This document shows, one piece after another, positions 3,142 to 4,931 of a stretch of DNA of 64,000 nt (positions within the stretch are counted from its first letter, which is position 1; each line of letters opens with the position of its first letter). Location: contig NZ_QRDJ01000008.1 of the NCBI RefSeq assembly GCF_003385845.1, forward strand, positions 248,001 through 312,000. Direction: 5' to 3'. The notes under the pieces are model-generated. The model worked only from the letters and a program-made list of their open reading frames with translations. It searched no databases and was not told where the DNA came from. The position numbers and the translations under genes are program-made. The DNA comes from Kushneria indalinina DSM 14324 (GTDB lineage Bacteria > Pseudomonadota > Gammaproteobacteria > Pseudomonadales > Halomonadaceae).

Positions 3142-3225
3142 ACTGATATCGGCGATTGCCTCGCCAGACAACAACCACGATGTTCAACAACAACGTTGTT
3201 CCAACGACCGTGACAGGTGACCCTC

Positions 3226-3351
3226 ATGACATCGCCGTCGACGTTACTGAAGGATCGTGCATTGCTGGTCGGTATGGTGGCCGGTGTAGTGGTGATATCG
3301 CTGGCGGCTGCGTTGCCGGCACTGTTTATCTGGAAGGAGTTTCTCATCTGA
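3226..3351 (+). CDS. Small single-pass membrane protein (41 aa), unknown
   Basis: A short frame encodes 41 residues: MTSPSTLLKDR, then a hydrophobic stretch from about residue 13 to 35 (LLVGMVAGVVVISLAAALPA and on), ending WKEFLI. This looks like one membrane helix with a basic N-terminal side. A weak AGGTGA sits 6 nt before the ATG. It follows folM by 84 nt and precedes a stable hairpin at 3381-3402. I do not recognise a family. Codon composition resembles the neighbours. Translation is uncertain because short hydrophobic frames can arise by chance. Confidence 0.4.
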   Translation: MTSPSTLLKDRALLVGMVAGVVVISLAAALPALFIWKEFLI

Positions 3352-3380
3352 GTCGGCCATGCTAGTCTCGGATGATCGAT

Positions 3381-3402
3381 CACGGGGTCGCTGGACCCCG
3401 TG
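3381..3402 (+). terminator. Stem-loop, possible weak terminator of the upstream unit
   Basis: A perfect 9-bp stem (CACGGGGTC at 3381-3389, GACCCCGTG at 3394-3402) has a 4-nt loop. The nearest T run (five T) begins about 14 nt downstream, so intrinsic termination would be weak. It may end the folM unit or be part of the leader RNA described next. Confidence 0.35.
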
Positions 3403-3438
3403 AGCTGAATCAGACATTTTTCATCAGGATAACCCGGC

Positions 3439-3564
3439 ATGTCGCATCTCGTGCTCAATGACACACTGACACCGCTGTCGCGCAGGGCGACAGCGGTGTT
3501 GTCGTGTGCTCAGAACACGGTCGGTTATCCAGTGGGCTATTGGTTTAGAGACAGGCACGCCTGA
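3439..3564 (+). CDS. Putative aromatic leader peptide (41 aa) of the DAHP synthase attenuator
   Basis: The ATG at 3439 has AGGA 9 nt upstream. The 41-codon frame ends GYPVGYWFRDRHA and contains Tyr at 3526-3528 and consecutive Tyr-Trp-Phe codons (TAT TGG TTT, 3538-3546) shortly before the TGA at 3562. The last codons form the 5' arm of a hairpin, and a strong terminator follows at 3607-3648. This is the arrangement of leader peptides in ribosome-mediated attenuation, and the codons match all three end products of the pathway. A second perfect 12-bp stem (3469-3480 with 3488-3499) sits early in the frame and is unexplained. No database support; inference from layout. Confidence 0.45.
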   Translation: MSHLVLNDTLTPLSRRATAVLSCAQNTVGYPVGYWFRDRHA

Positions 3565-3648
3565 TTGTTCAGGGCGTGCCGGTGTCTACCGTGCTGCCCA
3601 CCCATGAAACCCCCGGTCGGCAGCATGCCACCGGGGGTTTTTTGTTTT
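3550..3648 (+). promoter_or_regulatory. Candidate transcription attenuator upstream of DAHP synthase
   Basis: Segment 1 (GGCACGCC, 3554-3561) overlaps the end of the leader peptide and pairs perfectly with segment 2 (GGCGTGCC, 3573-3580). Segment 2 (GGCGTGC, 3573-3579) can instead pair with GCATGCC at 3623-3629 (one G-U pair), which lies inside the terminator; TGCTGCC (3592-3598) can also pair with GGCAGCA (3619-3625). The terminator is AAACCCCCGGT (3607-3617) with ACCGGGGGTTT (3630-3640), then a T-rich run to 3648. A ribosome stalled at the Tyr-Trp-Phe codons would cover segment 1 and free segment 2. No obvious promoter lies between the terminator and the gene, so expression seems to need read-through. 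Confidence 0.5.
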
Positions 3649-3690
3649 CATGCCATGGGTCAATGACCCGGTAGCCATCAGGAGAGCCGC

Positions 3691-3819
3691 ATGACCATGA
3701 CTTATCACAACGATTCGACCCTTGACTGGCGATTTAAGCCCACGCTGGCGGCGCTTCGGGCGCTGGCCGTCGGCGTGCTGGCACAGGGCGCTCCACTTTC
3801 CCCCTTGTTACGCTGTTAA
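3691..3819 (+). CDS. Small ORF (42 aa) directly upstream of DAHP synthase
   Basis: The ATG at 3691 follows GGAGAG with 4-6 nt spacing, a good ribosome binding site. The 42-residue product starts MTMTYHNDSTLDWRFKP and continues with an alanine/leucine-rich stretch to LSPLLRC. Its TAA at 3817 lies 17 nt before the start codon of the DAHP synthase gene, so the two could be translationally coupled. It carries one each of Tyr, Trp and Phe near the start but is not strongly enriched. No family recognised. It lies downstream of the terminator and would be made only on read-through transcripts. Confidence 0.4.
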   Translation: MTMTYHNDSTLDWRFKPTLAALRALAVGVLAQGAPLSPLLRC

Positions 3820-3836
3820 AGGATAGAAGAGACACC

Positions 3837-4931
3837 ATGAACGCCTTACGCCATACCGCCGAACCTGCCAGTGCTGCACCCGCCGAGCATGACCAAAAGG
3901 CTGGTGCGACGGGAGCTGCCCAGCCTCTGCCCACACCGGGCGCGCTCAAGGAAGCCATTGCGCTTGCGCCTTCTCTACAGGTGCAGATCGCAGGTCATCG
4001 CCAGACCATTCGTGACATTCTGGATGGGCGGGATTCGCGCCTGCTGGTCGTGATGGGGCCCTGTTCGATCCATGATCGCGACAGCGCACTCGACTATGCC
4101 CGGCGCTTGAAAGGGCTTGCCGATGAGGTGGCAGACAGCATGGTGCTGGTCATGCGGGTCTACGTCGAAAAACCGCGTACGACCGTGGGCTGGAAGGGGC
4201 TGGTGTATGATCCGCATCTGGATGGCAGCGACAACATGGCAGAAGGGCTTGCCAGTACGCGCCGGCTCATGCGCGATATCACCGAACTGGGCCTGCCGAT
4301 CGCCTGTGAGCTGCTTCAGCCCATGTTGAGTGCCTACATGGAGGATCTGATCAGCTGGGCGGCCGTTGGGGCACGTACCACCGAGTCACAGATTCATCGT
4401 GAAATGGTCAGTGCACTGCCCATGCCCACGGGCTTCAAGAATGGCACCGACGGCGGCATTCAGGTCGCCATTGATGCCATGGGCGCCAGCCGCCACGGCC
4501 ATCGCTATCCGGGCTTTGATGACAACGGCTGTCCGGCGCTTCTGCACTCCAGTGGCAATTCTCATACCCATTTGGTACTGCGCGGTGGCCACTGGGGTCC
4601 CAACTTTGACGCTCAAAGCGTCGAAATGGCTACCGGAGCCCTCAGGGCGGCCGGCGTTTCAACGGCCATCATGGTGGACTGCTCTCATGCCAACAGTGGC
4701 AAGGACCCCGCTCGACAACCTCTGGTGCTCGATGAGGTCATTCGCCAGCGTCTTGATGGCGCGTCATCCCTGGTCGGCGTCATGCTTGAAAGCCACCTGG
4801 AAGCGGGTAAACAGGCTCTGGGCGGAACGCTGCGCTACGGCGTCTCCGTGACCGATGGCTGCCTGGGCTGGACCGACAGCGAACATCACCTGCGCCTTGC
4901 CGCGCAGCGTCTGTCCGAGCAGCATATTTGA
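3837..4931 (+). CDS. aroG: 3-deoxy-7-phosphoheptulonate (DAHP) synthase, type I
   Basis: Condenses phosphoenolpyruvate with erythrose 4-phosphate, the first committed step of aromatic amino acid synthesis. The 364-residue protein has the family landmarks VVMGPCSIHD (metal-ligand Cys), YVEKPRTTVGWKG (substrate-binding Lys-Pro-Arg-Thr), GARTTESQ, GFKNGTDGG and DCSHANSGKDP. The N-terminal 45 residues are Ala/Pro-rich and unlike E. coli AroG. The C-terminal half resembles the Pseudomonas type annotated as Trp-sensitive, so the feedback inhibitor (Phe, Tyr or Trp) cannot be told and the symbol is provisional. The leader region upstream suggests attenuation by aromatic amino acids. A weak inverted repeat (4941-4948 with 4965-4972) follows the stop. 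Confidence 0.9.
   Translation: MNALRHTAEPASAAPAEHDQKAGATGAAQPLPTPGALKEAIALAPSLQVQIAGHRQTIRDILDGRDSRLLVVMGPCSIHDRDSALDYARRLKGLADEVADSMVLVMRVYVEKPRTTVGWKGLVYDPHLDGSDNMAEGLASTRRLMRDITELGLPIACELLQPMLSAYMEDLISWAAVGARTTESQIHREMVSALPMPTGFKNGTDGGIQVAIDAMGASRHGHRYPGFDDNGCPALLHSSGNSHTHLVLRGGHWGPNFDAQSVEMATGALRAAGVSTAIMVDCSHANSGKDPARQPLVLDEVIRQRLDGASSLVGVMLESHLEAGKQALGGTLRYGVSVTDGCLGWTDSEHHLRLAAQRLSEQHI

Follow-up and report, generated by a model that had tools for sequence, protein, structure and literature searches.

The trp and phe attenuators of Escherichia coli operate through mutually exclusive RNA helices, and the leader L1 described below shares with them a short leader frame, regulatory codons, exclusive helices and an intrinsic terminator. 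The two E. coli leaders sense one amino acid each, whereas the codon run of L1 is shared by three, and the parity of L1 is shifted by one relative to theirs, since formation of its helix 1:2 is expected to accompany readthrough. Both E. coli leaders are mentioned in the accessible part of PMC11802643. For DAHP synthase itself, a leader is known from Corynebacterium glutamicum, where aroR (Phe-Tyr-Phe) precedes the aroF DAHP synthase operon and, in the consulted portions of the two reports, controls it by attenuation through ribosome stalling, with a response to limiting Phe but none to the availability of Tyr (PMC11802643, PMC4046766). As far as these descriptions go, aroR resembles L1 in placing an aromatic-codon leader peptide before a DAHP synthase gene, and differs from the leader pair reported here in that one leader is described and its reported core has no Trp codon.

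Two further systems bear on the second leader of this locus, L2. The LEU element, located before leuA in Actinobacteria, combines a leader frame, a run of cognate codons and a conserved pseudoknot; according to the available part of the source, the cognate codons base-pair with the ribosome site of leuA, and mutating them reportedly leaves regulation unaffected (PMC1262725). L2 likewise joins a codon run to a conserved pseudoknot but, unlike the LEU element as described there, sits behind a complete attenuator. Two leader peptides for one gene are described in the accessible text on the ermB translational attenuator (PMC8274638), which differs from the L1/L2 pair in that an antibiotic is sensed, translation is controlled and the gene is unrelated.

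Here, we analyzed a 64,000-nt stretch of Kushneria indalinina DSM 14324 (contig NZ_QRDJ01000008.1), hereafter the window, in which two leader peptides in series probably control DAHP synthase, L1 as a transcription attenuator and L2 as a second check. A DAHP synthase attenuator is already known (aroR), and no single ingredient of L1 or L2 is unheard of; as far as our searches show, what has not been described is their combination, a run for three amino acids, the parity shift and the L2 element. The literature searched, which comprised few subscription papers and included PMC2965389, contained in the parts available no DAHP synthase leader in Pseudomonas or in the window's family, nor any serial pair of aromatic leaders. 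L1 would be one leader reading three amino acids where three pathways share their entry enzyme. The comparison also brings to light a second conserved leader with a pseudoknot and gives a likely function to P15, a Pseudomonas small RNA of unclear role; both leaders bear on the engineering of aromatic compound production.

Organization of the locus

The features of the locus are listed in Table 1. A preliminary description, made from the window alone, had proposed a ribosomal attenuator sensing Tyr, Trp and Phe in front of DAHP synthase. Its 41-codon frame, consecutive TAT TGG TTT codons, perfect hairpin following them (3554–3561 with 3573–3580) and T-tailed terminator are all present, the ribosome-binding site being a modest AGGA at 3426–3429, and the identity of the downstream gene agrees with its matches to TIGR00034 and PF00793. 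L2 was absent from that description.

Table 1. Features of the DAHP synthase leader region, in window coordinates
Feature	Position	Strand	Remarks
Candidate promoter	3341–3368	+	TTCTCA 3341–3346, 16 nt, TAGTCT 3363–3368; consensus match only
Leader peptide L1, 41 codons	3439–3564	+	codes MSHLVLNDTLTPLSRRATAVLSCAQNTVGYPVGYWFRDRHA
Segment 0 (GTGGGC)	3532–3537	+	can pair with GCCCAC 3596–3601; noted in the window's genus only
Regulatory codons TAT TGG TTT (Tyr Trp Phe)	3538–3546	+	
Segment 1, 5' arm of first hairpin	3554–3561	+	GGCACGCC; partner 3573–3580; covariation
Segment 2, 3' arm of first hairpin	3573–3580	+	GGCGTGCC; segment 3 is the other partner in most relatives
Segment 3, antiterminator 5' arm	3590–3598	+	CGTGCTGCC
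Segment 4, antiterminator 3' arm	3619–3627	+	GGCAGCATG; within terminator loop
Intrinsic terminator	3606–3648	+	stem 3606–3617 with 3630–3641, then T-rich tail
L2 ribosome-binding site	3680–3686	+	AGGAGAG
Second leader peptide L2	3691–3819	+	MTMTYHNDSTLDWRFKPTLAALRALAVGVLAQGAPLSPLLRC
L2 motif TGG CGA TTT A (Trp Arg Phe)	3727–3736	+	
L2 hairpin of the window's genus	3741–3777	+	begins 5 nt past the Phe codon
DAHP synthase ribosome-binding site	3818–3826	+	AAAGGATAG; overlapped by L2 stop codon
DAHP synthase (type I), regulated gene	3837–4931	+	TIGR00034, 425.7 bits; PF00793

The promoter-like pair of elements is kept in the seven aligned genomes of the genus, the window counted, its TAGTCT reading TGGTCT in one. 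The stretch 3400–3660 folds with a z-score of −7.67, none of 200 shuffles being as stable. A simple promoter/terminator scan did not list the L1 terminator because it limited loops to 3–8, the actual loop being 12.

Two smaller features lie 5' of L1. Between the candidate promoter and L1 there is a hairpin (3381–3402; CACGGGGTC...GACCCCGTG), at which relatives differ in sequence while the pairing seems to be largely kept. Directly upstream of the candidate promoter, 3217–3351 holds a 44-residue hydrophobic frame with no Pfam family above cut-off, and a comparable small frame precedes L1 in another genus (locus L191, 580–723).

Distribution of the leaders

We found homologues of DAHP synthase in 250 genomes of the family to which the window belongs, and took upstream regions from 110 of these and from 80 named loci, 190 regions in all. 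The 110 family genomes consist of 30 with loci and 80 picked among the best synthase matches listed; this sample runs from the best synthase match downwards, leaving out genomes with only a distant synthase. The named loci, the top 80 of 586 from a public genome set, comprise 77 Pseudomonas, two Stutzerimonas and one Alloalcanivorax. Strict patterns for L1 and L2 were both found in 161 of the 190 regions; 25 further regions have only L1 and four have only L2.

We also considered whether the same leader stands on the paralogous DAHP synthase; in 10 of 10 genomes of the window's genus compared, both motifs are absent within 500 nt upstream of that gene, a result that counts in favour of the two-leader reading. 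A class-wide search with an L1 model, run under stricter filters that lose weak matches, returned 31 matches (30 loci) in 21 of 274 sampled genomes; among the 30 loci, DAHP synthase lies within the roughly 1.5-kb flank for four genomes (G000, G003, G411 and G420) and not for the others. The L2 model gave no match in the same 274 genomes, an empty answer that is uninformative; the window's own genus lacks the second pseudoknot arm. A second, weak match of the L1 model in the window's own genome looks like a plain terminator and was set aside.

Codon content of L1

The strict L1 pattern, which itself fixed TGG TTT/TTC, occurs in 186 of the 190 upstream regions, and the remaining four carry variants with the cores GYWYGYF, GWYGYF, FWWYGYF or FYFGYWY. 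Among the 186 strict leaders, 174 read TAT/TAC TGG TTT A, six read TAT/TAC TGG TTT G, one reads TAT TGG TTC A, and five have a different codon ahead of TGG TTT. Over the 12 codons ending at Phe, the L1 frame contains on average 5.89 Tyr, Trp and Phe codons (n = 186), whereas the other two frames average 0.65 and 1.55; counts for L1 and L2 alike are conditioned on the TGG..TTT anchor, so that two of the 12 codons are given. Past Phe, the aromatic rate of L1 drops to 5.7% per codon. A ribosome-binding site with at least four matching bases precedes 150 of the 186 frames.

The Phe codon of L1 is TTT, and not TTC, in 185 of the 186 leaders, and the base after it is A in 180. This A after the Phe codon of L1 and of L2 is kept although the codon to which it belongs varies.

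Two local pairings were seen within or across the L1 frame. In the window's genus, the L1 ribosome-binding site (GGATAACC, 3427–3434) is complementary to GGTTATCC (3523–3530) inside L1, and this complementarity is largely kept in the seven aligned genomes, the window counted; the pairing may act as a throttle on L1 translation. The L1 of the window also contains a perfect 13-bp hairpin (3469–3499; ACACCGCTGTCGC...GCGACAGCGGTGT), of which only parts are present in the aligned relatives.

Covariation of the L1 helices

Covariation was measured on 74 non-redundant L1 leaders kept out of the 186, in paired columns picked after inspection of the alignments. Helix 1:2, counted on six gap-free pairs only, has 91.6% of its cells paired, with 62 both-side changes compared to 13.3 in shuffles. 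The corresponding values are 92.0% and 31 versus 5.1 for helix 2:3, 91.9% and 30 versus 9.8 for the antiterminator helix 3:4, and 89.5% and 35 versus 7.2 for the terminator helix. Sliding the partners lowered the share of paired cells for all four helices. The weakest measure concerns helix 2:3, whose count of pairs with changes on both sides was reached by 50 of 500 shuffles.

Helices 1:2, 2:3, 3:4 and the terminator form a mutually exclusive chain, with segment 4 lying in the terminator loop. L1 thus combines an intrinsic terminator with a conserved antiterminator that excludes it, both helices covarying. The alternative pairing first put forward for the window, 3573–3579 with 3623–3629, can be drawn; the conserved antiterminator is instead the longer 3590–3598 with 3619–3627.

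Predicted switching of L1

When charged tRNA for Tyr, Trp or Phe is scarce, the ribosome would stall at the Tyr-Trp-Phe codons of L1. In most relatives, a ribosome stalled there would stand just short of segment 1, so that helix 1:2 could form and leave segment 3 free; segment 3 would then pair with segment 4 as the antiterminator and block the terminator. With all three amino acids in ample supply, the ribosome would proceed to the L1 stop codon and hold helix 1:2 open, allowing helix 2:3 and, in the cell, termination. In the window's genus, segment 0, located directly 5' of the codons, apparently sequesters segment 3, and the stalled ribosome would cover it.

To express this quantitatively, we computed the pairs that join the terminator loop to upstream RNA once the loop has been made, with the front edge of the ribosome set 12 nt beyond the first base of the A-site codon. 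With the ribosome stalled at Trp, antiterminator pairs averaged 10.67 for family leaders and 7.25 for named loci; with the ribosome at the L1 stop codon, the means were 4.51 (median 1.0) and 1.92 (median 0.2), respectively. The Trp stall exceeded the stop codon in 83 of 107 family leaders and 74 of 79 named loci. The other 24 family leaders showed no clear gain, and two of these (G176 and G222) had almost no antiterminator in any ribosome-bound state. The mean difference between stall and stop was 6.11, compared to 0.05 with leaders shuffled between the codons and the terminator (n = 74).

The calculation depends on the footprint. With the edge at 15 nt rather than 12, the result for a Phe stall was reversed (13 leaders for, 31 against, of 74), and the Trp stall still held (44 for, 2 against, of 74). 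When RNA 5' of the ribosome was allowed to pair around it, the contrast was smaller, 44 of 74 leaders being for and 11 against. The untranslated state was also predicted to be rich in antiterminator pairs (means of 7.46 in the family and 6.44 in the named loci), unlike in classical attenuators.

Within the window's genus, helix 3:4 was calculated to be favoured even with the ribosome at the stop codon. Ribosome-free RNA of the window and six close relatives had 0.0 to 1.3 antiterminator pairs in four cases (0.0 in the window), 5.8 in a fifth, and 10.0 and 11.4 in the last two. Two members of the genus (G006 and G008), which carry GGCAGC with GCTGCC in place of the GTGGGC/GCCCAC of segment 0, reached only 0.1 to 1.3 pairs with a Tyr or Phe stall. 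Since the stalled ribosome would cover segment 0, the same output may be obtained there via a different sequestering partner. Overall, selection of the L1 helix by ribosome position is predicted for most leaders; the prediction is sensitive to the footprint and excepts the window's genus at the stop codon. The preliminary reading of L1 as a candidate Tyr/Trp/Phe attenuator is supported by what recurs in the relatives, namely the frame, the Tyr-Trp-Phe codons and four covarying helices. It is amended in that another antiterminator pairing is the conserved one, the parity differs from that of trp, the calculated switch is incomplete in the window's genus, L2 is added, and aroR stands as a precedent.

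Relationship of L1 to the small RNA P15

Searches with Rfam linked L1 to RF00627, sRNA P15. The L1 leaders of three Pseudomonas and Stutzerimonas loci score above its cut-off of 70 bits (L001, 113.2; L055, 108; L041, 104.7), the Alloalcanivorax leader reaches 68.6 bits, below the cut-off, and L1 of the window reaches 34.6 bits, below the same gathering cut-off. Among 14 control genomes, one (Deinobacterium chartae) was also matched, below the cut-off. P15 is classed in Rfam as an sRNA, with a model that begins within the L1 frame; given the scores in Pseudomonas and Stutzerimonas, P15 corresponds to the 3' portion of this leader, as far as the terminator. Across the 64-kb window, no Rfam family, T-box and riboswitch families included, scored above its cut-off.

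In the accessible parts of the literature, P15 is listed among sRNAs found by an earlier study (PMC2375449), and a 2008 survey suggested that it might be a riboswitch from its synteny with a TPP riboswitch (PMC2527527); the consulted text of these two papers does not mention a leader peptide for P15. That the region is a trans-acting small RNA or a riboswitch, with the L1 frame incidental, would accord with the Rfam entry and with the suggestion in PMC2527527. However, the aromatic codons are specific to the L1 reading frame, L1 stands ahead of DAHP synthase in the regions compared, and the antiterminator covaries, and we consider this explanation very improbable. Under the attenuator reading, the terminated L1 leader may also count as a small RNA.

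A second leader with a conserved RNA structure

The TGG CGA TTT A motif of L2 was found in 165 of the 190 regions. The search pattern fixed TGG CG. TTT, so that the last base of the Arg codon and the final A could vary; each of the 165 matched frames reads CGA TTT A after TGG. A ribosome-binding site with at least four matching bases precedes every one of these frames, and in the window the run reads Tyr...Asp-Trp-Arg-Phe. The 12 codons ending at Phe contain a mean of 5.11 Tyr, Trp and Phe codons (n = 165), against 0.23 and 0.81 in the other frames, and past Phe the aromatic rate falls to 0.4% per codon. Among the 25 regions without strict L2, six have a second Tyr/Trp/Phe-rich frame, e.g., MTYFYFEIGAWYYVS... 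and MRYYNPAFNRLFRWSF..., 18 have no room for L2, with 23–50 nt from the L1 terminator to the synthase start, and one has room and no Tyr/Trp/Phe-rich frame.

A recognizable second-arm sequence follows the motif in 150 of the 165 frames; the other 15, the window's genus among them, stand outside the pseudoknot alignment, which comprises 44 non-redundant sequences of the 150, one row (L151) having been lengthened by hand by 10 bases. In the 44 aligned sequences, a stem starts 8 nt past the Phe codon, and a second helix crosses it. The arrangement consists of an 8-bp stem, an 8-nt loop, a 6-bp second stem, a 1-nt junction and a third loop of mostly 9 nt, a geometry which, as read from these sequences, is that of an H-type pseudoknot. 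Of its cells, 95.6% are paired (93.5% in the first helix and 98.5% in the second), compared to 23.5–50.6% in slid versions, and both-side cells number 33, against 10.5 in shuffles. The weaker measures are a +3 slide, which gives 30 both-side cells to the 33, and the tally of pairs altered on both sides, a value that 22 of 500 shuffles reached. In the window's genus, a plain hairpin occupies the pseudoknot site, and the second arm of the other genera was not found. Six relatives scanned with Rfam gave no match over L2 up to an E-value of 0.5.

Possible outputs of L2

L2 would be translated from the transcript that survives L1, reading the same kinds of codons before its own conserved RNA structure and ending at or near the synthase start. 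Most likely it checks the supply of these amino acids a second time, after initiation, through translational coupling or Rho. We hold, from sequence evidence, that L2 is a second reader of the same amino acids, whose output may pass via translation coupling, Rho or RNA stability. A more specific proposal, which we advance tentatively and at slightly less than even confidence, is that L2 represents an undescribed type of translation-read RNA element with a conserved Trp(UGG)-Arg(CGA)-Phe(UUU)-A core, whose H-type pseudoknot, 8 nt on, forms only with a ribosome waiting at the aromatic codons; placed behind a terminator-type attenuator, it would let the same three amino acids gate the entry enzyme of the shikimate pathway twice, in transcription and after it.

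L1 could also be the sole regulator, with L2 a translated spacer or a small coding gene, for example of a peptide with a conserved WRF core. The absence of L2 from the 18 regions with short L1-to-synthase gaps indicates that it is dispensable, and the invariance of the CGA codon and of the A after TTT in the 165 matched frames also counts in favour of this view. Yet six of the seven remaining long gaps have lost WRF and keep a Tyr/Trp/Phe-rich frame, so that codon content is kept rather than a fixed peptide, which favours sensing. The steep fall in aromatic codons past Phe, and a peptide that 3' of the motif tracks RNA pairing, also speak against regulation by L1 alone, which we regard as unlikely.

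Alternatively, L2 could act as a translational attenuator, keeping the synthase ribosome site hidden unless a ribosome stalls on L2. This would fit the distance from the L2 end to the synthase start in the family (median 5.5 nt, with ATGA overlaps), the named loci having 29–50 nt (160 regions, starts chosen by script), and the presence of CCUCC within the pseudoknot in 36 of the 44 aligned sequences, as counted by eye. We calculated the energy needed to open the synthase site in 160 of the 165 L2 regions, with nested folding only and the pseudoknot itself unscored. In the family, the medians remained nearly flat at 6.5 to 7.0 kcal/mol for A-site codons from −4 to +8 around Trp, and fell to 5.5 kcal/mol at +15. 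The opening energies thus gave no support to a structure that hides the site, and we view this mode of action as doubtful, if a little less so than L1 acting by itself.

Control of Rho-dependent termination is a further candidate, in which translation of L2, or stalling on it, would hide or expose a Rho site ahead of the synthase gene. In keeping with such a role, the inspected sequences showed no intrinsic terminator 3' of L2, and leader frames elsewhere act through Rho, as noted for tna in the accessible part of PMC1262725; as a separate reading, it appears to us rather improbable. The occurrence of a pseudoknot after CGA TTT A also raised the idea of frameshifting from L2 into DAHP synthase. 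This idea found no support and was dropped: only 27 of 165 regions have a synthase frame that stays open as far back as the motif, and the median length before the −1 frame closes is 2 codons.

A second CGA, in the form CGATGT or CGAAGT, recurs 3' of the pseudoknot in L2 regions of the family (e.g., locus L102, 1430–1480); in Pseudomonas, it reads CGAACA.
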